A stretch of DNA of 64,000 nucleotides from an uncultured Erythrobacter sp. (GTDB taxonomy: Bacteria > Pseudomonadota > Alphaproteobacteria > Sphingomonadales > Sphingomonadaceae), in contig CANMTU010000001.1 of NCBI GenBank assembly GCA_947501005.1, positions 496,001 to 560,000 on the forward strand. The letters run 5' to 3'. Below, piece by piece: positions 4,828 through 44,072 of the stretch (within the stretch, counting starts at the first letter, position 1; every line of letters begins with the position of its first letter). Made by a program: the position numbers and the translations under genes. A model generated the notes under the pieces. The model was given only the letters and a program-made list of their open reading frames with translations. It was not told the DNA's origin and searched no databases.

Positions 4828-5401
4828 GCGTTTGTCGAGGCTTTGACGCGTGCAGGGAGTAGCGGGAAGGGCTGTTCGACGCTTCGTTGATCGAAGCTCG
4901 GCTGCCCGTTCCGCTGCTCCCGTTTTGTTTTGAACGGGCGTTGCGAGCGACGTTGCAGTTGCGGCGTTGGGGCGAACCCAGCTTTATCGTCAACATGCGA
5001 ATGGGCGGCGCTGAGCCATCGTATTGGTTTGCGAATATCGGATGGAATGATGCACGCGCAGCGTTCCTTGTAGGGCGTGCCCGGCCTTCCATCATCTAGT
5101 TCTATTTCAGGCACCTTGGCCCCCGTTAGGGAGATAGTTGGCTCTACCTTGAGCCAAGATTGCCGGGGATGAGGGGGGACGAGGGGCTGGATGTGACCAT
5201 CGCTTCGTCCGTCACCAACATACATGCCTCGCGCAGTGGCCCGTTTCGTATCCATTCGGTCCGCGACAGGCGGACAAAAAATACTTCGAAGTATAACGCT
5301 CTGCGCCCACCGAAAACCACGGTTCCGGAACTGATTAGCGGAACGCAACAGGCGCCGCTTGGTTGATTGGTTATTCATCCAATAATTGGAAACGACCCGT
5401 T
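4828..5401. other. 574-bp gap with no confident gene; palindrome at 5281-5294
   Basis: Base composition is lower in GC than the neighbouring genes. A minus-strand frame (4824-5378) and a plus-strand frame (4887-5099) are open but have no recognisable domain, good ribosome site or coding-like composition. A perfect palindrome, atacttcgaagtat, lies at 5281-5294. The downstream edge carries the candidate stress promoter of the next gene. Confidence 0.5.
5340..5364 (+). promoter_or_regulatory. Candidate EcfG (general stress sigma) promoter
   Basis: GGAAC at 5340-5344 is followed, after 16 bases, by GGTT at 5361-5364. This matches the alphaproteobacterial EcfG/SigT consensus GGAAC-N16/17-cGTT except for the first -10 base. 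It lies about 40 bp upstream of the ATG of a stress-protein-like gene, giving a short leader. It also argues against a TTG start at 5363, which would fall inside the promoter. Confidence 0.6.
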
Positions 5402-5929
5402 ATGACCAAGTACAACCCCAACCTCAGTTCCGCCGTCTTCGATACGCACGACGCAGCGGACCGTGCAATTCGCGATCTGAAGGCTGCCGGCGCCAGCAAC
5501 GACAATATCTCGGTCGTCGCGCGCGACCATGGCGCAACCACCACGACCGACGGTTCCGGCGCCGAGGCGGCGAAGGATATCGTCGGCAAGGGCGCGCTCG
5601 GCGGCGGCATCGGCGCACTGCTCGGCGTGGCGGCGCTCGCGATTCCCGGTGTCGGGCCGCTGGTCGGCGCAGGAGCCATCGCCGCGACGGCTGCTGGCGG
5701 CGCGGCGCTTACCGGTACGGCCGTCGGTGCGGCGGCCGGTGCCATCGCCGGCGCGCTGGAAGATCACGGCGTGAGCAAGGAAGATGCGGCCTATTACGAG
5801 CGCGAAATGGAAAAGGGCGGCGTGATGGTATCGGTCGACACCGACCACGCCCGGATGACCACCGAGCAGGCGAACGAAATCCTTGCCCGCGCCGGCGGCC
5901 ATTCGAGTACGATCAGCCGCACGCACTGA
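5402..5929 (+). CDS. YflT-like general stress protein with glycine-rich hydrophobic core
   Basis: 175 residues from ATG 5402. The first ~45 residues (AVFDTHDAADRAIRDLKAAG, then ISVVARD) resemble the YflT/general-stress-17M domain. The middle (about residues 60-120) is Gly/Ala-rich and hydrophobic, like a glycine-zipper segment, and may insert into or associate with membrane. The C-terminal part (GGVMVSVDTD, then EQANEILARAGG) is a second short alpha/beta unit. An upstream TTG in frame was rejected because a candidate EcfG promoter overlaps it. Monocistronic, with its own terminator. Molecular function is unknown for the family; a stress role is inferred from the promoter and domain. Confidence 0.8.
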   Translation: MTKYNPNLSSAVFDTHDAADRAIRDLKAAGASNDNISVVARDHGATTTTDGSGAEAAKDIVGKGALGGGIGALLGVAALAIPGVGPLVGAGAIAATAAGGAALTGTAVGAAAGAIAGALEDHGVSKEDAAYYEREMEKGGVMVSVDTDHARMTTEQANEILARAGGHSSTISRTH

Positions 5930-5953
5930 TCGTACCAGGCGTAAGACTATCGG

Positions 5954-5984
5954 ACGGGGCGGGACGAGTTTCCCGCCCCGTTTT
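5954..5984 (+). terminator. Rho-independent terminator of the stress-protein gene
   Basis: An 11-bp perfect stem (acggggcggga at 5954-5964 pairing with 5971-5981), a 6-base loop and a short T run. It sits 24 bases after the stop codon at 5929. Confidence 0.85.
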
Positions 5985-6298
5985 GACGTATGCGATGAGA
6001 ATCTGCTTTACCGCTTTGCGTCGCCAGGGGCCGGTTATTCGAGATGTCGCTGCGATCAACCGCTCGCCGGCGCCGATATTCTTCCGGGCGATCAGTTCAC
6101 AAGTCTAGCGGAAGTCGCAAAGGCGGACTGTGACGCTCCGTAACCAAGCTACTCGCTACGCCGCCCGTGCGACTGATGTTAGAGTGAGCCGCCGTCAAAC
6201 CCTGTGACTTTGCGCGCCTGTCTGGCGCGAAGGGCGTCCCCATTCGCCTCCTGCAAACTTGCCGACCGGTTGCCCCATATCCCAAGTTCGCGCCTCGC
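5985..6298. other. Gap of ~310 bp; no gene seen
   Basis: It lies between the plus-strand stress gene and the 3' end of the minus-strand five-gene operon. Short open frames exist but none has a ribosome site or recognisable sequence. No clear terminator hairpin was seen for the operon arriving from the right. Confidence 0.5.
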
Positions 6299-6889
6299 CT
6301 AACCGCCCTGAGCGCTCGATTGCTTCCGCAACCGGTCGATCCGGTACTGGTCCGCTTCCTGCCGCAGATCGGCAGCCCACCCTGCAGAGTCTTTGAAGAT
6401 TTCTACCGCGCGCGGTCCGTCCACCGGCAGGTCGTTCGGCCCGGTCCAGTTGATGAGGAGGCAGGCGCCGCCGGGGTCGAGGCTCTCCCATGCGCGCCGC
6501 GACGCACGGGCGACATCCTCGGCGGAAAGGAAATACAGCACCTCGGAAAAAAGAATCAGGTCGAAGCGGCCCGCCGGCCAGTCCCGCGGCACCTCGCCGC
6601 GCACGAATGTAACGTGCGACCCGTTCTCCACCCGCGAACGCGCCGCCCGCAACGCATTCTCCGCCACATCGATCGCGACCAGCCGATCCGCCAGGGGCAC
6701 GAGTTCGGCGGTGAGGACACCGGTCGAACAGCCAATATCCAGCACATGCGCGAACCGCCCGTCGGGAAGCGCCGCAAGCGTCGCGGCGCGTTTGCGGCGT
6801 TCGTAATCGCTCGTCTCGACGTTCCACGGATCGCGGTCAGCCTCGTAAAGCGCTTCGAAAGCGGTGCGCTTGTCCGTCTCATTGCTCAC
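6299..6889 (-). CDS. NodS-type SAM-dependent methyltransferase
   Basis: 196 residues from GTG 6889, which has GGAG 9-10 bases upstream and overlaps the deacetylase gene by 11 bases. Residues 20-41 carry the NodS-family signature (DPW, then SDYERRK, then TLAALP). The SAM-binding motif LDIGCSTGVLT follows (50-60), then an acidic strand-2 end (AIDVAE). NodS proteins N-methylate the deacetylated amino sugar of lipochitooligosaccharides; this paralogue's acceptor is unknown. It is the last gene of the five-gene operon. Directly after the PIG-L deacetylase, it could methylate the amine that enzyme exposes, which is inference. Confidence 0.82.
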   Translation of the reverse strand: MSNETDKRTAFEALYEADRDPWNVETSDYERRKRAATLAALPDGRFAHVLDIGCSTGVLTAELVPLADRLVAIDVAENALRAARSRVENGSHVTFVRGEVPRDWPAGRFDLILFSEVLYFLSAEDVARASRRAWESLDPGGACLLINWTGPNDLPVDGPRAVEIFKDSAGWAADLRQEADQYRIDRLRKQSSAQGG

Positions 6890-7613
6890 GGATGAAGATC
6901 TCCGGATGGTTTGCGAAATGGTCGACAAACACCGCCGGCATGACGAAACCTTCAGGATCGTCATCGATCAGGTCGCCGGTTTGCGAGCGATAGCAGTCGA
7001 TCGCATCGCGTTTGGCCGCGAGGAACCGGGCGTCGTGGAAGCATGTCAGACCGGAGGGCGGGGTGCCCGGGCCGAACCGGCCCCATACGGCGAAGGCGAA
7101 ATGCGGGATCGCCAGCCGCCGCGACACGCGGGTGGCGAGCGCGGCGGCGGTCTGATGATCGCAATGCGGATCGCCCGCCCATGTCGTCCAGATCACGGAA
7201 GCCTTGTTCTCCAGGGCCAGGTCTGCGACCTGCTCGACGGTCTCGGGTGAAATGTCCGCCGGCATGCTCGCGCCGTCCGGAAAGGCGAGCCGGTGGACGG
7301 CGATCGGCGCGCCCGGACAGAGATGGCCCAGCGCCTCCTGCAATTCCGCGCGGCGCAGCGCGGCCAAGGCATCAGAGCCGTATCGGGCAGAGGATGGGTG
7401 CGACGCCTCGCCGTCGGTCAGCAGGACGATCGCGGCCCGTCTGCCGCTCGCCACTGCGGCGGCCAGCGCCATGCCGCAGCCGAACGTCTCGTCGTCCGGA
7501 TGGGGGATGACCAGCATTAGGCCCGCGCCCGGCGCAAGCTGTTCGATGGGGATCAGCGGCGCCGTTCGCGCAGCGTCCAGCAGGGTGCCCGATACCGCTT
7601 CGGGCAGGCTCAC
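6879..7613 (-). CDS. PIG-L family (LmbE-like) zinc deacetylase
   Basis: 244 residues from GTG 7613, which overlaps the preceding stop by four bases (GTGA). The Zn-binding and catalytic motif HPDDE is at residues 38-42, and the second metal site His150-Cys-Asp-His153 is present, so the active site looks intact. The family hydrolyses N-acetyl groups from amino-sugar conjugates (GlcNAc-PI, GlcNAc-malate, mycothiol precursors). The longer open frame upstream is rejected because it lies inside the acyl-CoA-dehydrogenase gene. Genetic coupling to a glycosyltransferase and a NodS-like methyltransferase points to an amino-sugar-containing product. Confidence 0.88.
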   Translation of the reverse strand: MSLPEAVSGTLLDAARTAPLIPIEQLAPGAGLMLVIPHPDDETFGCGMALAAAVASGRRAAIVLLTDGEASHPSSARYGSDALAALRRAELQEALGHLCPGAPIAVHRLAFPDGASMPADISPETVEQVADLALENKASVIWTTWAGDPHCDHQTAAALATRVSRRLAIPHFAFAVWGRFGPGTPPSGLTCFHDARFLAAKRDAIDCYRSQTGDLIDDDPEGFVMPAVFVDHFANHPEIFIREQ

Positions 7614-8716
7614 AACCGGTCCACCAGTGCGCCGCTTTCCACGAGGTGCGCGGCGGCCTTTGCGCGCTTGGCGTCGGGCGCGGCCTGGCGCAGGAACAGG
7701 CGCAGGTCGCGGCAGATGCGCTCGACCGGAGAGCCTTCGATATAGGCCGCCGTTCCCAGTGCACGCTCGACCCGGCCGATCACGATCAGGCAGTGTTCCT
7801 CGGTCACCTCCCGCGCAAGCAGCGAGAGCACTGCCGCGTCCGGCTGGGCCCCCTCCGCCTCGACCGCGCAGGCCGCCCGCAGGATCCACAGCCGCATGGT
7901 TTCAAGCGCGATGGCGGTTTCGGCAATACGGCGCTGCTGGTGCGGGTCGCCGGCGCGGTCGCGGCCGATCAGGGCATCGCGCATGGTTTCGTACAGGCTT
8001 TCCGCTGCGCCAAGATGCGCGGCGCAGTAACGCCAGATACCGCCTTCGAAATGCGGTTCGGTGTAGTAAACGTCCGGCGCGCCCAACCGGCAGGCCGGAT
8101 CGAGCCGGATCCCTGTGAAGTCGTAGCGGCCCGAGCGCGTCGCCCGCATCCCGCCCATGCGCCAGCTTGCGGGATCGGCGCGGCCGGGATCATCGACCGG
8201 GGCCAGCCACAGCTCGGTTCCCGCATCGCTCGACACGGTGACGACCGCGCGCCCGACAGGGCCGAGGCCGGAGGCGAACTGCTTGGTCCCCTCAAACGAA
8301 ATTTCGGCGTTTCCGTCATCGCGCACTACGGCATCGCCCGGCACGTCCGCGCCCCAAACGCCCAGCAGCGTGCCGTTCCTGACCTCCGCGAACGCGTCGG
8401 CCTGCAAACTCTCGCAGCCATACAGGTGGACGAGCTTGACCGCGTTCATATGCCCTTCGAACAGGCGGGCGAGCGCGAGGTTGGCGCGCCCGACCTTGCG
8501 CAGCGCGTCGAAGGCGGGTTCGGTGCCGGCCGGCTCGCAGCCCCAGCCCGCGCCGCCGAATGCCTGCGGCAGGCACGCGGCCAGCCACCCTGCGCCGTCC
8601 AGGTCGCGCACGTCCTGTGCCAGGTCGCCATCATGCCGATCCGCCTGCCGCGCACGCTCTTGAATGGGAGCGAGGGACAGGCGAGCGAGCAGATCGTCCG
8701 ACATCGCGGTGCGCAT
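7610..8716 (-). CDS. Acyl-CoA-dehydrogenase-like flavoprotein
   Basis: 368 residues. The sequence follows the acyl-CoA dehydrogenase fold: an N-terminal helical domain (LDGAGWLAACLPQAFGGAGWG), a beta domain, then a C-terminal helical domain (AHLGAAESLYETMRDAL, then IALETMRLWILRAA). It is divergent: the usual GGYG and FAD-contact motifs near the C-terminus are not evident, so substrate and even chemistry are uncertain. ATG 8716 overlaps the glycosyltransferase stop by one base; ATG 8704 (MSDDLLARL) is an equally possible start. Position four-square inside a biosynthetic operon suggests desaturation or oxidation of an acyl or sugar intermediate rather than fatty-acid degradation. Confidence 0.78.
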   Translation of the reverse strand: MRTAMSDDLLARLSLAPIQERARQADRHDGDLAQDVRDLDGAGWLAACLPQAFGGAGWGCEPAGTEPAFDALRKVGRANLALARLFEGHMNAVKLVHLYGCESLQADAFAEVRNGTLLGVWGADVPGDAVVRDDGNAEISFEGTKQFASGLGPVGRAVVTVSSDAGTELWLAPVDDPGRADPASWRMGGMRATRSGRYDFTGIRLDPACRLGAPDVYYTEPHFEGGIWRYCAAHLGAAESLYETMRDALIGRDRAGDPHQQRRIAETAIALETMRLWILRAACAVEAEGAQPDAAVLSLLAREVTEEHCLIVIGRVERALGTAAYIEGSPVERICRDLRLFLRQAAPDAKRAKAAAHLVESGALVDRL

Positions 8717-9831
8717 CAGCGAAGGATCGCCCGAGCTTTGCCAAGTTCGCGCAGAAGCTCGCTGTAGCGCAGGGGTTGGAGGCGCGCATTCGCCGCCGTT
8801 TCACCCTGCGAACCTGTGACCCTGTTCGCCAGAAGGCGCAAGTCCGCCACCCGCATCAGCCGCCCGTCGCACAGCGGGTCTTCCTGATGCGCGCGTTCGT
8901 TCAGGGCCGCGCCGCAGCCGCCTTCAGCCCGGCCATAGATACGGGCCGAGGTGCGCGTGCCGCAATCGCCAAGCGTCACGACCTTGCAGCCCGCCTTCAG
9001 GGCCATATCGCACAGCGCCGCATCTTCCCCCGACGGGGGCAGGGGCAGGGCGCCCAGCGCGCCATACACGTCGCTGCGCAGCGCCATGCTGGCGCCCGAG
9101 GGCCGATGGGCGAATACGCCGTGCGCCCCGCCGGTCCATCGATCCCACAAGGCGTTGCTGGCATCGAAGAACGCCCGCTCCGCCTCGCCGACCTCGCGCA
9201 CGCTATCGGGCAGGCGGGCAAGTTCCTCTTCGTCGAGCCGGATGTCCTCGCAGACGAGGTCGTATCCCGAGCGGATGGCCCCTAGCATGTCGCAGCACCA
9301 GCCCGGACCCACCCGCGTATCCGCATCGCTCGTCAACAGTACGCCACCGGGGCACAGCCGCACGGCCAAGTCGAGCGCGAACCTGCGAGCGTGGGGGGCG
9401 TTTCTGACTTCGGGATCGAGCGTGAATTCGACCGCTAGCCCCGCAATATCGGCGGCGGCGAAGGCATTTCTGACCAGATCGAACGAGCGATCCGTACTGT
9501 CGTGCAGGGCAATGACCAGCGCCCCGCTTGCGCCTGACTGTCGCGCCGCCTGTTCCATCGCGCGGGACAGGCTTTCGATGCAGCGCGGAAGGAAGCCTTC
9601 CTCGTCGCGCGCCGGGATGGCCACAGCGTAATCGAAGGCAGGGGCGGAAAGGGTGTTCGCCGTCCGCAAAACCTGAGCGCGACCGGCGAACGGATCGCTC
9701 CCCACCACACTGTCGATCAATGGCCCGACATCCGGGGCGGGCGGCGGCAAGATCGAATCGCGAAGCAATCCGGGGACGTGCGAGACCTGCCGTATCGGCA
9801 ACGGGTTCGCACTGCCCCCGGACAGGCTCAT
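8716..9831 (-). CDS. Family 2 glycosyltransferase (GT-A fold)
   Basis: 371 residues from ATG 9831, overlapping the preceding stop as ATGA. After about 65 variable residues the GT-A start motif is clear (YAVAIPARDEE, 68-78). The DXD-type metal site is in LLTSDADTRVGP, and an acceptor-side acidic pair lies in SGEDAALCDMALKAG. There are no obvious membrane helices, so it is probably cytosolic or peripheral. It is predicted to transfer a sugar from a nucleotide donor; the acceptor is unknown. It is the second gene of the five-gene operon and the only sugar-transfer enzyme in it. Confidence 0.85.
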   Translation of the reverse strand: MSLSGGSANPLPIRQVSHVPGLLRDSILPPPAPDVGPLIDSVVGSDPFAGRAQVLRTANTLSAPAFDYAVAIPARDEEGFLPRCIESLSRAMEQAARQSGASGALVIALHDSTDRSFDLVRNAFAAADIAGLAVEFTLDPEVRNAPHARRFALDLAVRLCPGGVLLTSDADTRVGPGWCCDMLGAIRSGYDLVCEDIRLDEEELARLPDSVREVGEAERAFFDASNALWDRWTGGAHGVFAHRPSGASMALRSDVYGALGALPLPPSGEDAALCDMALKAGCKVVTLGDCGTRTSARIYGRAEGGCGAALNERAHQEDPLCDGRLMRVADLRLLANRVTGSQGETAANARLQPLRYSELLRELGKARAILR

Positions 9832-10325
9832 CCTTTGGCGGCGAGGTTGACGCTGCGTTCCGCCAGATCGCTCATATTCTCGTCGGCGTCGTAGATTTCG
9901 GCGGTGATCTTGTCGAGCTTGCTCACATGATCCTTCTTGCCGAGCGCGTCGGCGAAGGCCTTGGCCGTGCCGAAGCCGCAGATGCCGTAATGGCACATCC
10001 GCTGATATTGCGAGAGGATGACCACGTCGCGTACGTCACCGTCCTCGATCTTGGCTTCGAGGGCATGCTTGCGGGCTTCCTTGACCAGCCCTTCCATGCC
10101 CTTGCAATGTTCCTTCTCGTCCTCGCCGCAATCCTTGAGCAGTTCCTTGAGCGTCTTGGTATGCTTGGCGATGCCGTCGGTCGCCTTTTCCAGCTTGGAG
10201 CGCAGCTTGTCGTCGCTGGCCTTCTTGGCCAGTTCCTTGACGATCTTTTCCATCTGGTCGTTCGCCGACCACAGATCGGCCAGTTCCTCGGTATAGCAAT
10301 CGGCAAGGTTTTCGGGTGCGGACAT
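9828..10325 (-). CDS. DUF892 (YciF-like) ferritin-like protein
   Basis: 165 residues from ATG 10325 with a good ribosome site (GGAGAG, 6-7 bases upstream). Almost entirely helical: EELADLWSANDQMEKIVKELAKKA, then HTKTLKELLKDCGEDEKEHCKGMEGL, then SQYQRMCHYGICGFGTAKAFADALGK. This is the DUF892 four-helix ferritin-like pattern with Glu/His candidates for a di-iron site. Family members are linked to stress responses but have no settled activity. It heads the overlapping operon, and its stop overlaps the glycosyltransferase ATG by four bases. It could be a di-iron oxidase step in the pathway or an unrelated stress gene sharing the promoter. Confidence 0.85.
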   Translation of the reverse strand: MSAPENLADCYTEELADLWSANDQMEKIVKELAKKASDDKLRSKLEKATDGIAKHTKTLKELLKDCGEDEKEHCKGMEGLVKEARKHALEAKIEDGDVRDVVILSQYQRMCHYGICGFGTAKAFADALGKKDHVSKLDKITAEIYDADENMSDLAERSVNLAAKG

Positions 10326-10622
10326 GCGTGCTCTCCATGCGTTTTCGTGTTGATACGCCGATGGGAAAATCGGCACTTGATACCCAGTCAAAGTCTTGTA
10401 ATCCGAAGGCGTTCCCGATGAAGCGGGAGAGGGCGGGGCCGCCTGCGCAATCCGGGGCGGCATGCCAATCGCCTCATGCGGGTCGTCGCGCCGCCTTGTC
10501 AGGGGCGGGATGATGCGTTCAAACCCGTTCAACCCCGCCGATCCCGGTCACCGGGGGTCGAAATTCCGCTGCGTCCCGCCTGCCGGACCTGAAACCACGC
10601 CACGCAAACCGCCGAGGAAACC
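10326..10622. other. Divergent control region between the DUF892 operon and the DUF389 gene
   Basis: 297 bp separate two divergent genes and must contain both promoters. A GGAAC on the minus strand (within cgggaacgcc, about 10411-10416) is present, but no GTT stands 16-17 bases downstream, so an EcfG promoter is not supported. Short plus-strand frames look non-coding. Confidence 0.4.
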
Positions 10623-11873
10623 ATGCGTCAACTCGCCCTGACCGTCGATCCCAGCCAGACCGAAGCCGTCATCGAAGCCGCCCGCAAGCACGATATCGTC
10701 CTGTTCGCGCAGGTCGACGCGCAGGCGGAGGACAGCCTGCGCCAGATGCTGATCTTCGAGGCGCCGAACGCCAGGATCGAGGCTTTCGTCGGTGCGATCG
10801 AAGACCATGAGGGGCTGCGCGCGATCTTCGCGCCGCAGGGGATAATCTCGCTTCGCCCGCCAGCCTCCGAGGCCGAAGACCAGATGCTCGACATCCAGCC
10901 GCGCAGCCCGCTGGAAGTGTTTCTCGACGGATTGCAGAGCATCGGTTCGTGGCCCGGTTTCCTCAGCTATGCAGTCATCGGCGGCATCATCGTATGGATC
11001 GGGCTGTTCACGGAAAGCGTGTTCCTGCTGGTCGCGGCCATGCTGATCGCGCCTTTTGCCGGCCCGGCGATGACGCTCGCCATCGCGACGGCGAGGGGGG
11101 ATCACACGCTCCTTATGCGGTCCCTGTCGCGCTATTGCGCGGCCCTGCTTGCCAGCATCGCGACCGCCTATCTGCTCAGCGTCATATTCGACCAGCAGAT
11201 CGCGACCGCGCTGATGATCGAGACCAGCATGCGCTCGACGGTGTCTTTCCTGCTGCCGCTTGCCGCGGGCGTCGCCGGCGCGCTCAATCTCGTCCAGTCG
11301 GAGCGCAGCAGCCTCGTCAGCGGCGCGGCGACCGGCATGCTGGTGGCCGCCGCGCTGGCCCCCCCGGCCGGGCTCGTCGGCATGGGGCTGGCGCTGGGCG
11401 AGATGGACATGGTCATATCGAGCCTGTGGGCGCTTGCGATCCAGATCGTCGGCATCAATCTGGCGGGCTTCGTCGTTTTTCGCATCTACGGCCTCGGAAC
11501 CAAGGGCGCGCGTTATCCCCGCGGCAATACGACGATAGCACGGGCCTCGATCGTGATCAGCACGATCGCACTGGCGGCACTGCTGGCGGTGCAGTTCTGG
11601 AAGACGCCGCAATTCCAGCAATCCTCGCTCGCCCAGCGCATTTCCGCATCGGTGCAAAAGGAGGTGATCGACACGCCGGGCATGCGGCCCATGATCATCC
11701 AGTCCCAGTTCACCCGCAACCGGTCGTGGGGAGAGAACCCCGTCTGGGTCACCGTGAAACTTCAGGGCGCCTTGTCCGAAAGCGAGAAACAGGCCTTCGC
11801 CAACCGGCTGGAAGCGCGGGTAGAGCAGGAATTCGGGGTGACGGCGCTGATCGAATTGAGCGCGGTCTCGTAA
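10623..11873 (+). CDS. DUF389 integral membrane protein
   Basis: 416 residues with GAGGA six bases before the ATG. Residues 1-75 form a soluble alpha/beta domain, as in the N-terminus of the DUF389/TIGR00341 family. The following region has several hydrophobic helices including the conserved core VAAMLIAPFAGPAMTLAIATARGD, and GMLVAAALAPPAGLVGMGLALG. A final hydrophobic helix precedes a soluble tail. Family members are inner-membrane proteins of unknown function. It is transcribed alone, divergent from the biosynthetic operon. Confidence 0.88.
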   Translation: MRQLALTVDPSQTEAVIEAARKHDIVLFAQVDAQAEDSLRQMLIFEAPNARIEAFVGAIEDHEGLRAIFAPQGIISLRPPASEAEDQMLDIQPRSPLEVFLDGLQSIGSWPGFLSYAVIGGIIVWIGLFTESVFLLVAAMLIAPFAGPAMTLAIATARGDHTLLMRSLSRYCAALLASIATAYLLSVIFDQQIATALMIETSMRSTVSFLLPLAAGVAGALNLVQSERSSLVSGAATGMLVAAALAPPAGLVGMGLALGEMDMVISSLWALAIQIVGINLAGFVVFRIYGLGTKGARYPRGNTTIARASIVISTIALAALLAVQFWKTPQFQQSSLAQRISASVQKEVIDTPGMRPMIIQSQFTRNRSWGENPVWVTVKLQGALSESEKQAFANRLEARVEQEFGVTALIELSAVS

Positions 11874-12007: not shown

Positions 12008-13948
12008 GTGGACGGGGAAATTGCGGACGTGGTGAACTTGGCTGAGACGGACATCGACATTGGCGGGCAGGCGGCGTTCGATGGGCTTGTCGACCTGACA
12101 TCGCAGATTTTCGATGCGCCGATGGCGGCGCTCCTGGCGTGCCGGGACGGTAGCAAGCGGGCCGAGGCCCTGCTGGGGCCGAGCGAGACGATCGAGCGGA
12201 TCTACGATGACCTGTCGCTCAAATCGCGCGAGGAAAACGAGCCCTTCGTCTTCCGCAAATTTTCGGACCACGAGATCGGCCTGCCCGAGGGGGGCGAGAT
12301 CCGCTTCCTGTGCGGACTGAAGCTTTGCACCTCCGACGGTTCGACCAGCGTGACGCTGATCGTCGCCGATAGCGAGCCGCGCCCCGGCGGGATCACGCCG
12401 CAGCAGGAGCGGTCGCTGGAAATCCTGTGTTCGCAGGCCGTGTCGCAGATCGAATTGCGGCAATCCCAGGCGATCCAGCGCGCCAGTTCCTCGCGTCTCG
12501 CCTTCCTGGGCCGGCTGGCGGAGGCCACGCAGAACCTGACCGATGCGACCGGTATCATGCAGCGGACGGCGCATCTGATCGGCGAACATCTCGATCTGGA
12601 GATCTGCGCCTATGCCGACATGGACGCGGACGAGGACGGGTTCACGATCGGCGGCAACTGGGTCGCGCCCGGCGCGCAAAGCATCGTCGGCTCATACCAG
12701 CTGTCGCGGTTCGGCGAACTGGCGGTCACCAATCTGAAAGGCGGCAAACCCCTCGTCATCGACGATACCGCCACGCTGCCGCCGGGGGCCGAACAGATGT
12801 TCGCCAGCATCGGCGTGCGCGCGACGATCTGCATGCCGCTGATCAAGGAAGGCAGGCTGACCGCCCTGATGGCCGTGCACAGCGCCCGGCCGCGCAAATG
12901 GACGAAGAGCGAGCTGCACCTGATCGGCGAGGTGGTCGAGCGGTCGTGGGCGCATATCGAACGCGTGCGCTCCGAACGGACCGCGCGCGAGACGACCCGG
13001 CGGCTGAACGCCATCCTCGGCAATACCCGCTCGGCGGTGTTCCTCATGGATGAGAGCCAGCAATGCATCTACGCCAACGCCGCCGCCGAACAGCTGACCG
13101 GCTATGCCTTCGCCGAAATGCGCGGGCGGCCGCTGCACGACGTCGTGCATCACAAAAAACCCGACGGGTCGCATTACCCGATCGAGGAATGCCCGATCGA
13201 CCGGGCCTTTCCCGAACGCGCGCAGATGTCGGGCGAGGAATTGTTCGTCGCGCCCGACGGCGAATTCTACCCCGTCGGTTTCACGGCCAGCCCGGTGCTC
13301 GACGATCAGAAGCAGCCCATCGGTACCGTCATCGAAGCCCGCAATATCACCGAGGAACGGCGCGCGCGCGAGCATCAGGACCTGCTGATCGACGAGCTCA
13401 ATCACCGGGCGAAGAACCTGCTGGCCATCGTGCAGGGGATCGTCGCCCAGACGATGAAATCGTCCGATCCCGCGATCCGCCACGCGCTTGAGGGGCGGCT
13501 GATGGCACTGGCGGCGGCGCACAGCCTGCTGACCAAGCGCAATTGGGAGCCTGCGCCGCTGCAGCAGATCGTGGCGGATGCGCTCGAACCCCATGTGCAG
13601 CAGCACGTGTTCCATATCTCGGGGCCGCATCTCATGCTCGCCTCGAAAACGGCGGTGTCGATGCTGCTGGCGTTGCACGAACTGGCGACCAATGCGGTCA
13701 AATACGGCAGCCTCTCGGTGCCCGAGGGCAAGATCGACGTCACCTGGCATACGGATGAGGGCATGTTGCATTTCACCTGGCGCGAGAGCGGCGGGCCGAA
13801 GGTCGTCGTCCCGCAATCGCGGGGCTTCGGCAGCCGGATGCTGGAACGCGGGCTCGCCGCCGAGCTCGACGGGCAAGTGCGCATCGACTTCGCGCCGGAC
13901 GGGCTGGTATGCGCGATCACCGCGCCGCTGGACGCGGCAACGGCATGA
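12008..13948 (+). CDS. HWE-family sensor histidine kinase (GAF-GAF-PAS)
   Basis: 646 residues from GTG 12008; GTG 12032 is also possible and neither start has a strong ribosome site. Two GAF-like domains span about residues 15-150 and 165-320. A PAS domain follows (about 330-450, with IYANAAAEQLTGYAFAEMRG). The kinase domain is of the HWE/HisKA_2 type: ELNHRAKNLLAIVQG with phospho-acceptor His466, then HELATNAVKYG for ATP binding. There are no membrane segments, so it senses a cytosolic signal, possibly light or redox through GAF/PAS ligands. It overlaps the response regulator gene by four bases and so forms a two-component pair; HWE kinases often act in the alphaproteobacterial general stress response. 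Confidence 0.9.
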   Translation: MDGEIADVVNLAETDIDIGGQAAFDGLVDLTSQIFDAPMAALLACRDGSKRAEALLGPSETIERIYDDLSLKSREENEPFVFRKFSDHEIGLPEGGEIRFLCGLKLCTSDGSTSVTLIVADSEPRPGGITPQQERSLEILCSQAVSQIELRQSQAIQRASSSRLAFLGRLAEATQNLTDATGIMQRTAHLIGEHLDLEICAYADMDADEDGFTIGGNWVAPGAQSIVGSYQLSRFGELAVTNLKGGKPLVIDDTATLPPGAEQMFASIGVRATICMPLIKEGRLTALMAVHSARPRKWTKSELHLIGEVVERSWAHIERVRSERTARETTRRLNAILGNTRSAVFLMDESQQCIYANAAAEQLTGYAFAEMRGRPLHDVVHHKKPDGSHYPIEECPIDRAFPERAQMSGEELFVAPDGEFYPVGFTASPVLDDQKQPIGTVIEARNITEERRAREHQDLLIDELNHRAKNLLAIVQGIVAQTMKSSDPAIRHALEGRLMALAAAHSLLTKRNWEPAPLQQIVADALEPHVQQHVFHISGPHLMLASKTAVSMLLALHELATNAVKYGSLSVPEGKIDVTWHTDEGMLHFTWRESGGPKVVVPQSRGFGSRMLERGLAAELDGQVRIDFAPDGLVCAITAPLDAATA

Positions 13949-14322
13949 GCGCGCTGCAAGGCATGACGCTCCTGCTGGTGGAGGACGAGCCGATCGTGGC
14001 CATGCGTGCCGAGGACATGCTGCTCGAACTCGGCGCCGCCACGGTCGAGCTGTGCTACCGCGTCGATCCGGCGATCGCGGCGATCGGGCAACAAGGGTTC
14101 GACGCGGCCGTCCTCGACATCAACCTCAATGGCGAGCGCAGTTTTCCGATCGCGGCCATCCTGACCGAACGCGCCATCCCTTTCATCTTTGCCACGGGCT
14201 TCGCCGATCGCGAGACGCCGTTTCCCGGCGCACCCGTGATCGGCAAACCCTATCGGACGCAGGAACTGGCGCAGGCGCTCGGGCGCGCCCTCGATCGGCG
14301 GGCCAACGAGGCGGCATCCTGA
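13945..14322 (+). CDS. Single-domain response regulator
   Basis: 125 residues from ATG 13945 (ATGA overlap with the kinase stop). It is a complete receiver domain with no output domain: acidic pocket VEDEP (12-16), phospho-acceptor Asp58 in AVLDINLNG, the switch region FATGFADRE and the conserved Lys in IGKPY. It probably acts by passing phosphate on or by protein contact. Cognate kinase: the HWE kinase immediately upstream. Confidence 0.9.
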   Translation: MSALQGMTLLLVEDEPIVAMRAEDMLLELGAATVELCYRVDPAIAAIGQQGFDAAVLDINLNGERSFPIAAILTERAIPFIFATGFADRETPFPGAPVIGKPYRTQELAQALGRALDRRANEAAS

Positions 14323-27963: not shown

Positions 27964-27985
27964 GATATAAAAATATCTTTATATC
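27964..27985 (+). promoter_or_regulatory. Palindromic operator, probably of the SahR-like regulator
   Basis: A 22-base A+T-rich near-perfect palindrome (20 of 22 positions symmetric; arms gatataaa and tttatatc) ends nine bases before the regulator's ATG, where it would block initiation. ArsR-family repressors bind such sites. Position implies autoregulation and control of the downstream metF-metH genes. Confidence 0.65.
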
Positions 27986-27994
27986 GAAGCTGGA

Positions 27995-28969
27995 ATGCGC
28001 ATCGAAACCATCTTCCGGGCCCTTGCGGATCCCACGCGGTTGCGGGTTCTGCGGCTGCTCGGCTCGATGGAACTCGCCGTCGGTGAACTGGCCCAGGCAC
28101 TTGGGCAGAGCCAGCCGCGCGTCTCGCGCCATGTCGGCATCCTGTGCGAGGCGGGGCTGGCGCATCGCCGCCGGGAAGGCAGCTGGACGTTCCTGCGCGC
28201 TGGCGGCGAGGCGCGCGCGCTCGAAACCGAGATCAACGCCCTGCTCGACGCCGCCGAACGGATCGACGATGGCTTCGCCCGCCAGTGCGAGACCGATCGC
28301 CGCAAGCTGGCGGAAATTCGCGAACGGCGCGAAAGCCTCGCGGAAAGCTATTTCGCCGATCATGCCGACGATTGGGATGAGTTGCGCCGCCTCCATTCCT
28401 CCGACGAGGCGGTGGAGCGTGCCCTGGCGAAGGCGCTGGGCGATGGCCCGCTCGGCCGGTTGCTCGATATCGGCACGGGTACGGGGCGCATGGCGGAACT
28501 GTTCGCGGCGCGGGCGGATCACATCGTCGCGCTCGACAAGAGCCTGGCCATGCTGCGCGTCGCGCGGGCAAAGCTGCAGCACCTTCCGCCCGAACAGGTC
28601 GAACTGGTGCAGGGCAATTTCACCGAACTTCCCTTCGGCGACGATGCGTTCGATACGGTAATGTTCCACCAGGTCCTCCATTTCGCCCAAAGCCCGGGCG
28701 GCGCGCTGGCCGAGGCTGCGCGGGTGACGCGGGGCGGGGGACGCATCGCGATCGTCGACTTCGCCGCGCATCAGCGCGAGGAATTGCGCGGGCGGCACGC
28801 CCATGCCCGGCTGGGCTTCGCGGACGATCAGATGGACGAATTGCTGGGCGAGGCCGGTTTCCTGCCGGCCCGGCCCGTCGCCCTCGACGATGGAGAGCTG
28901 GTAGTGAAGATCTGGATCGCAACCCGCCAGTCGGCCCCAGCCGCCGCGGCGAGGAGGGCCGTATCGTGA
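27995..28969 (+). CDS. ArsR-family regulator fused to SAM-dependent methyltransferase domain (SahR-like)
   Basis: 324 residues. Residues ~1-85 are an ArsR winged helix (FRALADPTRLRVLRLLG, then LGQSQPRVSRHVGILCEAGL). Residues ~140-320 are a class I methyltransferase fold with SAM motif LLDIGTGTGRMAELF. This two-domain layout is that of SahR, an ArsR-type regulator of methionine/SAM-cycle genes in Proteobacteria that responds to S-adenosylhomocysteine. The neighbourhood fits: metF starts within its stop (GTGA) and both metH halves follow. The palindrome at 27964-27985 is the likely site. Confidence 0.85.
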   Translation: MRIETIFRALADPTRLRVLRLLGSMELAVGELAQALGQSQPRVSRHVGILCEAGLAHRRREGSWTFLRAGGEARALETEINALLDAAERIDDGFARQCETDRRKLAEIRERRESLAESYFADHADDWDELRRLHSSDEAVERALAKALGDGPLGRLLDIGTGTGRMAELFAARADHIVALDKSLAMLRVARAKLQHLPPEQVELVQGNFTELPFGDDAFDTVMFHQVLHFAQSPGGALAEAARVTRGGGRIAIVDFAAHQREELRGRHAHARLGFADDQMDELLGEAGFLPARPVALDDGELVVKIWIATRQSAPAAAARRAVS

Positions 28970-42824: not shown

Positions 42825-43970
42825 TCATTGCCGCAACAAGTCCCGCCCCACGATCATGCGCATCACCTGGTTGGTGCCCTCGAGGATCGAATGCACGCGC
42901 AGGTCGCGCCAGAAGCGTTCGATCGGGTATTCCTGCAGATAGCCGTAGCCGCCGAACAATTGCAGCGCATCGTTCACGATCTTGCTGCCGTTATCGGTGG
43001 CGAGACGCTTGGCCATGGCGGAGAAACGGCTCTTGTCGGGCGCATTGTCCGTCACCTTGGCGGCGGCGAGATAGAGAAGGGCGCGCGACGCCTCCAGATC
43101 GGTCGCCATGTCGGCCAGCATGAACTGGGTGTTCTGGAAATCGGCGATAGGCTGGTCGAACTGCTTGCGGTCCTTGGTGTAGGCCACCGCCTCGTCGAGG
43201 CAGCGTTGCGCCCCGCCGAGGCTGCAGGCGCCGATGTTCAGCCGCCCGCCGTCGAGCCCCATCATGGCGAAGCGGAACCCTTCGCCCTCGTCGCCGACGC
43301 GGTTGGCGACCGGGACGCGCGCATCCTCGAAGATGACCTGCGCGGTGGGGGAAGCATTCCAGCCGAGCTTCTTTTCCGGCTTGCCGAAGGAGACGCCCGG
43401 CGTGTCCTTGTCGATCACCAGGCAGGTGATGCCCTTGGTCTTGTGTTCGCCCGTGCGGACCATCGTGACGTAGACGTCGTTCACGCCGCCGCCGGAAATG
43501 AACTGCTTGGTGCCGTTCAACACGTAATGATCGCCGTCCAGCACGGCTTGCGCCTTCAGTCCGGCCGCGTCGGACCCGCTGCCCGGTTCGGTGAGGCAAT
43601 AGCTCGCGATCTTTTCCATCCCGACGAGATCGGGAAGATAGCGGTCCTTCACGTCCTGCCCGCCGAACTGGTCGATCATCCAGCTCGCCATGTTGTGGAT
43701 CGAGATGAACGCGCTGGTCGTGGGGCAACCATAGGCCATCGCCTCCATAATGAGGGCCGCTTCCAGCCGGCCGAGGCCGATGCCGCCGCTCTCCTCGCTG
43801 ACATAGATTGCGCCGAACCCGAGTTCCGCGCTGCTTTTGATGACGTCGCGCGGGAAGTGGCTGGTCTGGTCCCAATCCCCGGCGAAGGGGGTGATGTTGT
43901 CGGCGGTGAACTTGCGCGCGACATCCTGGATCGCGCGCTGTTCTTCGGTAAGCTGGAATTGTCCTGTCAT
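42825..43970 (-). CDS. Acyl-CoA dehydrogenase, probably isobutyryl-CoA dehydrogenase
   Basis: 381 residues from ATG 43970 (MTGQFQLTEEQ). Typical family motifs: CLTEPGSGSDAAGLKA, GTKQFISGGG, RLNIGACSLGGAQRCLDEAVAY, RKQFDQPIADFQNTQFMLADMA, and DALQLFGGYGYLQEYPIERFWRD. First gene of the cluster and directly coupled to 3-hydroxyisobutyryl-CoA hydrolase, so isobutyryl-CoA from valine is the likely substrate. The methylmalonate-semialdehyde dehydrogenase (mmsA) expected in such clusters is not in the window. Confidence 0.93.
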   Translation of the reverse strand: MTGQFQLTEEQRAIQDVARKFTADNITPFAGDWDQTSHFPRDVIKSSAELGFGAIYVSEESGGIGLGRLEAALIMEAMAYGCPTTSAFISIHNMASWMIDQFGGQDVKDRYLPDLVGMEKIASYCLTEPGSGSDAAGLKAQAVLDGDHYVLNGTKQFISGGGVNDVYVTMVRTGEHKTKGITCLVIDKDTPGVSFGKPEKKLGWNASPTAQVIFEDARVPVANRVGDEGEGFRFAMMGLDGGRLNIGACSLGGAQRCLDEAVAYTKDRKQFDQPIADFQNTQFMLADMATDLEASRALLYLAAAKVTDNAPDKSRFSAMAKRLATDNGSKIVNDALQLFGGYGYLQEYPIERFWRDLRVHSILEGTNQVMRMIVGRDLLRQ

Positions 43971-44072
43971 GCGGCAGGCTCTAGCCAAGGCAGACGGCGA
44001 TTGCCAGCCATGCGGACAGCGGAAATTCGCCGCGCGCACCGGCCCCCGCCCGCCGCACCCCGCGTGAGGCCG

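Follow-up and report, generated by a model that had tools for sequence, protein, structure and literature searches.

Several described systems share parts with the locus reported here. The Nod factor genes nodB-nodC-nodS encode a glycosyltransferase, a sugar N-deacetylase and a NodS-superfamily methyltransferase, and two trifunctional proteins, from Gloeothece and Mesorhizobium, unite these activities on one chain, the methyltransferase domain being NodS-like. Deacetylation by the PIG-L-type enzymes MshB (mycothiol) and BshB (bacillithiol) follows a sugar transfer. Group D flavin monooxygenases (DszC, MsuC and TdsC; the sugar N-oxygenases KijD3, ORF36 and DnmZ) have the acyl-CoA-dehydrogenase fold; sections of one published account describe aromatic hydroxylation by group D enzymes and also N-hydroxylation (PMC6165268). 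We analysed a 64,000-nucleotide stretch of DNA from an uncultured Erythrobacter sp. (contig CANMTU010000001.1, positions 496,001 to 560,000; hereafter the window), in which a glycosyltransferase, a sugar N-deacetylase and a NodS-superfamily methyltransferase likewise stand together in one operon, joined by a flavoprotein and a DUF892 protein. On balance, and with slightly more confidence than doubt, we propose that the first four of these form a mobile biosynthetic cassette for a small N-methylated glycoside or glycoconjugate of an amino sugar, produced as part of stress survival.

The five genes lie on the minus strand from 10325 to 6299. All four junctions between them overlap, which bears out the single overlapping operon described in the first-pass annotation of the window. 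The lead gene (9828..10325, ATG start) encodes the DUF892 protein (YciF-like, ferritin-like; Pfam DUF892, 119.7 bits, cut-off 23.7) and overlaps by 4 nt (ATGA) the gene of a GT2-type glycosyltransferase of GT-A fold (8716..9831, ATG start; Pfam Glycos_transf_2, 26.2 bits, cut-off 23.3). The flavoprotein, of acyl-CoA-dehydrogenase fold and a predicted group D monooxygenase, is encoded at 7610..8716 (Pfam Acyl-CoA_dh_1, 38.3 bits); its gene shares 1 nt (TGATG) with that of the glycosyltransferase if the ATG at 8716 is the start, an alternative ATG lying at 8704. The gene of the PIG-L zinc de-N-acetylase (6879..7613, GTG start; Pfam PIG-L, 83.1 bits; PHPDDE and a second motif, HCDH) overlaps the flavoprotein gene by 4 nt (GTGA) and, by 11 nt, that of a NodS-like class I S-adenosylmethionine-dependent methyltransferase (6299..6889, GTG start). 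All five proteins exceeded their Pfam cut-offs, the glycosyltransferase only narrowly. NCBIfam gave no specific name to any of the five, the NodS, MshB/BshB and DszC/SfnB models all scoring far under their cut-offs. No sigma-70-type promoter was found in 5900-10700.

The conserved unit consists of four genes, encoding GT2, flavoprotein, PIG-L and methyltransferase. Loci were selected by the flavoprotein, and a glycosyltransferase was counted when it lay within 6.5 kb. From 120 loci, removal of repeats (L071/L210, L068/L209, L084/L203) and of the near-identical pair L091/L093 led to a set of 115; the filter also excluded L055, although this locus holds all four genes. The four core families were found together at 73 of the 115 loci, and the gene-neighbourhood check suggested in the first-pass annotation thus did not reveal rare co-occurrence. 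Outside Methylobacteriaceae the set was complete at 66/72 loci and inside that family at 7/43, a family count that takes in four loci of one further genus; a Methylobacterium locus with the flavoprotein alone (L034) was included in the counts. The order glycosyltransferase, flavoprotein, PIG-L, methyltransferase was kept at 47/115 loci, and the glycosyltransferase gene lay downstream on the opposite strand at 14/115 and downstream on the same strand at 12/115. Pairwise distances of the four families correlated (r 0.68-0.84, 55 loci), part of which is expected from shared descent alone.

Carriers of the cassette belong to Proteobacteria, Deinococcus and Cyanobacteria, and two Actinobacteria hold related sets. 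In annotated plasmid neighbourhoods, reached by tblastn with the flavoprotein, the four genes were adjacent in Roseivivax, Paracoccus, Deinococcus, Komagataeibacter, Bradyrhizobium, Novosphingobium, Sphingobium, Jiella, Sulfitobacter, Sphingomonas and Acinetobacter; Roseomonas (L043) held three of them. For Nostoc, Novosphingobium RL4 and Methylobacterium aquaticum, whose records are unannotated, the cassettes were read from the sequence. Flavoprotein, PIG-L and methyltransferase genes are present in Deinococcus radiodurans, in which a helicase gene separates the last two, and in the actinobacterium Kitasatospora. Two variants of gene layout were seen in Methylobacterium. In M. aquaticum, glycosyltransferase and flavoprotein matches fall in a single uninterrupted open frame (L042:3633-6041), possibly a natural fusion, and at two other loci (L089:7384-7890, L113:7351-7896) a protein judged by eye to be LigD 3'-phosphoesterase-like is encoded between glycosyltransferase and flavoprotein. 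Flavoprotein matches on Rhizobium/Sinorhizobium plasmids were weak (about 24-29% identity) and were excluded from the family alignments; at the only locus of this type inspected (L051) the genes are those of beta-oxidation.

The family alignment was run against 84,980 genomes, one per species, and returned at least 521 relatives; the best 80 of these were used. The search was extended to 249 genomes of the phylum and to 61 relatives. A contig scan with a single glycosyltransferase sequence gave no usable matches, and the flavoprotein alignment was used as the query. In the phylum search a clean gap separated cassette flavoproteins (at least 149.8 bits) from ordinary acyl-CoA dehydrogenases (at most 91.5 bits), and a cassette flavoprotein was present in 17/249 genomes. 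Within the genus of the window, the methyltransferase was found in 6/60 genomes as eight copies, and all eight had a cassette flavoprotein at most 1 kb away. Since so few genomes of the genus carry it, the cassette is an accessory unit. We found no treatment of it in open-access PubMed Central texts as judged by titles and the openings of abstracts, which is weak evidence of absence, and the passages of PMC8092242 consulted hold nothing on it.

The genome of the window carries a second copy of the operon, on contig C2 (33000-49000), with the same five-gene order and a flavoprotein 56-57% identical to that of the window; its DUF892 frame contains one internal TAG. The block around this copy shares 98.7% DNA identity over 12.6 kb with Novosphingopyxis and, including a catalase gene, 93-98% over 8.4 kb with records named Erythrobacter, Aurantiacibacter and Citromicrobium. 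As the collection has a single genome for each species, so close a match is a sign of recent transfer between genera. In the methyltransferase tree, Deinococcus and Nostoc cassettes were placed among alphaproteobacterial ones, a placement in line with transfer between phyla. The flavoprotein genes in records named Methylobacterium jeotgali and M. hispanicum (L091, L093) show no difference over at least 600 bases, and this locus may be moving too. This second, mobile copy, the spread across phyla and the stress-gene neighbours described below go beyond the first-pass annotation.

The DUF892 gene is not supported as a regular partner. It accompanies only 15 of the 115 loci (at 12 it lies about 2 kb upstream and on the same strand, at two 3.6-3.9 kb upstream, and at one downstream on the opposite strand), and we therefore rejected a five-gene unit as the conserved entity. 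The genome of the window has exactly two DUF892 genes, each immediately upstream of a cassette copy. DUF892 is thus a lineage-specific addition; it is possible that it acts as a di-iron oxidase of the pathway, a role without support elsewhere. In Kitasatospora a ferritin-like gene follows the cassette (L222:6485-7021), comparable to the DUF892 gene beside that of the window.

The PIG-L protein has the metal ligands and catalytic aspartate of its class. The metal site and catalytic acid (H38, D40, D41, E42, H150, D152, H153) were kept in 82/82 aligned rows, 79 after de-duplication. The window thus holds a PIG-L enzyme and not a CE4 deacetylase of NodB type, which was found in the Rubrobacter cassette only. 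In Rubrobacter indicoceani the order is CE4 polysaccharide deacetylase, flavoprotein, NodS-like methyltransferase, flavin adenine dinucleotide (FAD) oxidoreductase and glycosyltransferase, with no PIG-L annotated there, and the NodB-type CE4 gene lies 44 bp before the flavoprotein gene. No second record of this kind was present among the best 10 of 69 matches to the Rubrobacter flavoprotein. In addition, GT2, a NodS-like methyltransferase domain and CE4 are joined in single proteins of Gloeothece (WP_013334356.1, Cyanobacteria) and Mesorhizobium (WP_064995291.1). The best clues on the deacetylase and METHYLTRANSFERASE come from the Rubrobacter CE4 gene and these fusions, from which the view of a deacetylase acting on an amino sugar, with the methyltransferase as its probable partner, gains support. 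The earlier suggestion that glycosyltransferase, de-N-acetylase and NodS-type methyltransferase act together is upheld by the same clues and by the conservation of the set outside Methylobacteriaceae.

The methyltransferase falls in the NodS superfamily (Pfam PF05401, 80.5 bits, cut-off 24) but not in the NCBIfam NodS equivalog (77.1 bits, cut-off 300). When true NodS was compared with plasmids, the best non-Nod match was the Mesorhizobium fusion, followed by cassette methyltransferases (best 60 of 131 records). An unrooted tree of 65 rows placed the four NodS proteins in one group and the two fusions in another; a branch with support 75/88 set the cassette methyltransferases apart, NodS being on a separate branch. 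Judged by sequence, cassette methyltransferases and NodS are relatives. A nesting of NodS within the cassette methyltransferases is not supported by this tree. Protein Data Bank matches of the methyltransferase were 4isc and the NodS structure 3ofj; the nearest solved structure, 4isc, labelled just 'Methyltransferase', matches a non-alphaproteobacterial cassette methyltransferase at 155 bits. A defence-system reading was discarded, its sole basis being a generic methyltransferase match to mad2 (62 bits).

The glycosyltransferase does not qualify as NodC, being a weak PF00535 member (26 bits) with no NCBIfam match. D169/D171 (DXD) and E269-D270 were invariant in 54 members. The AlphaFold 2 model (predicted local distance difference test score, pLDDT, 90.7) has a GT-A fold with generic matches, at TMq <0.5 among the best 50 rows; chitin and hyaluronan synthases appeared among them as generic GT-A matches only. 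Neither donor nor acceptor can be read from this model.

A 58-member profile of the flavoprotein matched DszC best (96.5 bits), followed by MsuC (89.1) and TdsC (87.5); lower came acyl-CoA dehydrogenase 4u83 (70.7), KijD3 (68.8), other dehydrogenases, the nitrososynthase 3mxl (60.3), which we take to be ORF36, and DnmZ (58.9). DszC also ranked first in a Foldseek search with the AlphaFold 2 model (pLDDT 93.7). Residues E83 (118/118), H85 (118/118) and W117 (119/119) were invariant. With an acyl-CoA-dehydrogenase fold and monooxygenases as best profile matches, the protein is likely a group D flavin monooxygenase, and the sugar amine freed by PIG-L would suit it as a substrate. In Rubrobacter the pyridine-nucleotide FAD oxidoreductase encoded between methyltransferase and glycosyltransferase (L221:5573-6775) is a possible electron donor to the flavoprotein. 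The flavoprotein of Deinococcus gobiensis is annotated as 782 aa (L047:3585-5933), with a long N-terminal part that has no Pfam match.

Stress genes recur around the cassettes. Within 8 kb, heme catalase genes occurred at 28 of the 115 loci, LigD-like genes at 19, DUF421 at 11 and Ku at 8; any of these or DUF892 was near 49. PAS/HWE-type kinases were near 14/115 and DUF389 near 8/115. Neighbour families were assigned by Pfam on representative proteins and Ku from annotation, and many flanks end at contig ends. A catalase gene lay within 10 kb of 7/25 cassettes, against 0.2 expected at random, in 23 genomes holding 35 full-length catalase genes (the 17 of the phylum search, five more of the genus of the window and G033). 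An Mn-catalase gene adjoins the Roseivivax cassette. A loose motif for EcfG-type stress promoters, drawn from what we take to be the consensus, occurred 14 times in 136 kb upstream of cassettes and 106 times in 3.56 Mb elsewhere (3.5-fold); the strict motif gave 2 against 20 (2.6-fold) and a variant 3 against 89 (0.9-fold). This enrichment is only a hint, because the control is mostly coding DNA. On an Acinetobacter plasmid, catalase and trehalose-6-phosphate synthase genes flank the cassette, and a gene for an iron-containing redox enzyme (Haem_oxygenas_2; L052:2795-4201) precedes it.

Taken together, these data suggest the following pathway. GT2 would move an N-acetyl-amino sugar onto an acceptor, PIG-L would take off the N-acetyl group, and the NodS-like enzyme would N-methylate the freed amine. 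The flavoprotein, as a group D flavin monooxygenase, would then oxygenate the product, possibly at the same nitrogen. The most likely product is a de-N-acetylated, N-methylated, flavin-oxygenated amino-sugar glycoside; the donor, the acceptor, methylation at N as opposed to O, the position oxygenated and any role in protection are our inferences. A bolder version, which we hold to be possible but doubtful, is that the product is a widespread and as yet undescribed stress metabolite, an amino-sugar glycoside de-N-acetylated, N-methylated and N-oxygenated by the flavoenzyme (hydroxylamine or nitrone type). Its four-gene cassette would be spreading, along with catalase and DNA-end-joining genes, on plasmids and genomic islands. 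The methyltransferases of the cassette and of the fusion enzymes would be the nearest relatives of the one recruited for Nod factor synthesis.

Several observations weigh against the proposed pathway and its stress role. Methylobacteriaceae carry PIG-L at 9/43 loci only. Replacement of PIG-L by CE4 is known from the one Rubrobacter locus, and two single-sequence queries at E 1e-4 found no CE4 gene beside cassettes, loci devoid of PIG-L included. Since 34/43 Methylobacteriaceae loci are without PIG-L and these queries found no CE4 gene beside such loci, deacetylation is not always local. The operon contains no flavin reductase gene, the two Flavin_Reduct genes of this genome both lying outside it. 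None of the catalase, LigD, Ku, DUF892 or DUF421 genes was near 66/115 loci, the window copy has no catalase nearby, and no EcfG-type motif matched upstream of its operon. Five of the seven catalase pairs come from the genus of the window, so that independent cases number nearer three, and the stress context may reflect mere co-regulation or hitch-hiking on plasmids. In the profile ranking, sugar N-oxygenases stand below DszC and MsuC and also below the best dehydrogenase. Finally, template-modelling scores (TM-scores) of the flavoprotein model were about 0.79-0.85 to dehydrogenases and monooxygenases alike, and as true dehydrogenases score equally, fold alone cannot decide its function.

These equal TM-scores fit the first-pass view that the flavoprotein is an acyl-CoA- or acyl-ACP (acyl carrier protein)-dehydrogenase-like enzyme tailoring an acyl chain, the product being an N-methylated amino-sugar lipid; Pfam and record annotations also name the protein acyl-CoA dehydrogenase. 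The residues do not bear this out. The column of the dehydrogenase base, mapped by an alignment of moderate confidence there, was Gln340 in 116/116 rows (112/112 de-duplicated), residue 341 was A/P/S/T/C, and the column that we take to be the isovaleryl-type catalytic Glu site was Gly222 in 117/117 rows, so that Glu stands at neither base site. Because the catalytic Glu site holds Gln and the best profile matches are group D monooxygenases, a dehydrogenase role is unlikely. In addition, no acyltransferase, acyl carrier protein or lipid gene was among the recurring neighbours identified, many neighbour clusters being without identification. We therefore consider the lipid product unlikely, and suggest that the 'acyl-CoA dehydrogenase' label in many records is wrong for the cassette flavoprotein family.

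Two further products can be weighed against the proposed small glycoside. The cassette could make or modify a cell-surface polysaccharide or glycan, with GT2 elongating and the other enzymes decorating, a reading to which we give somewhat more weight than to a lipid but still hold to be improbable. Two or more glycosyltransferases were present at 4/14 annotated plasmid cassettes (L044, L045, L047, L050), glycosyltransferase-like neighbour clusters recurred at 4-9 of 120 loci, and the glycosyltransferase profile weakly matched polyprenyl-phosphate sugar transferases. However, nine of the 14 annotated cassettes had a single glycosyltransferase and one had none, and no polymerase, flippase or export gene was noticed to recur among those neighbours (only a part) that were identified. 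It is very unlikely that the cassette decorates trehalose or another disaccharide as a stress protectant. Trehalose genes adjoin 7/115 loci, including 5/11 proteobacterial loci outside Alphaproteobacteria, and otsB-otsA lie directly upstream on the same strand at two (L195, L201); but there are none near the other 108, and these are common stress genes, perhaps only co-regulated. We retain the N-methylated amino-sugar glycoside or glycoconjugate as our preferred product.

The operon of the window is flanked on the opposite strand by a gene for a YflT-domain (heat-induced stress) protein (5363..5929, plus strand; Pfam YflT, 35.0 bits) and by a divergent gene for a DUF389 membrane protein (10623..11873, plus strand; 92.9 bits). 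A GAF/PAS HWE histidine kinase gene follows at 12008..13948 (plus strand; Pfam HWE_HK, 83.1 bits, GAF and PAS), and next after it a receiver-domain-like gene (13909-14322; Response_reg, 29.1 bits, just below the cut-off of 30.2). Two other frames of the window gave matches, one to the methyltransferase domain, and distant (27971-28966, plus strand; 36 bits), the other resembling an ordinary acyl-CoA dehydrogenase (42828-44072, minus strand; 27 bits).

A conserved, mobile four-enzyme pathway across Proteobacteria, Deinococcus and Cyanobacteria is a clear target for metabolite discovery, and a product that proved protective against drying or oxidation would add a small molecule to those of bacterial stress survival. 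Compared with known systems, the cassette shares with yciGFE-katN-type stress genes the DUF892 gene of the window and the Mn-catalase gene beside the Roseivivax cassette; we know of no biosynthetic cassette at such genes. Its PIG-L protein scores far under the MshB and BshB cut-offs, and in contrast to those pathways a methyltransferase and a flavoprotein are added and the operon has no cysteine ligase. Like group D monooxygenases its flavoprotein pairs the acyl-CoA-dehydrogenase fold with the loss of the dehydrogenase base, but identity to them is about 20%, and sugar N-oxygenases rank under the sulfur-compound enzymes. The trifunctional proteins of Gloeothece and Mesorhizobium differ in that their chain lacks a flavoprotein, their deacetylase is CE4 and not PIG-L, and their methyltransferase lies on another branch. 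NodA, the N-acyltransferase, is absent from the operon and had no match in the genome of the window, although this family gave no match in 14 control genomes either. The cassette is not a Nod system: it has PIG-L instead of the CE4 enzyme NodB, a different, generic GT-A GT2 and an extra flavoprotein, and its carriers span several phyla and are mostly not known symbionts. The kinship of its methyltransferase with NodS nevertheless bears on the origin of Nod factor chemistry.

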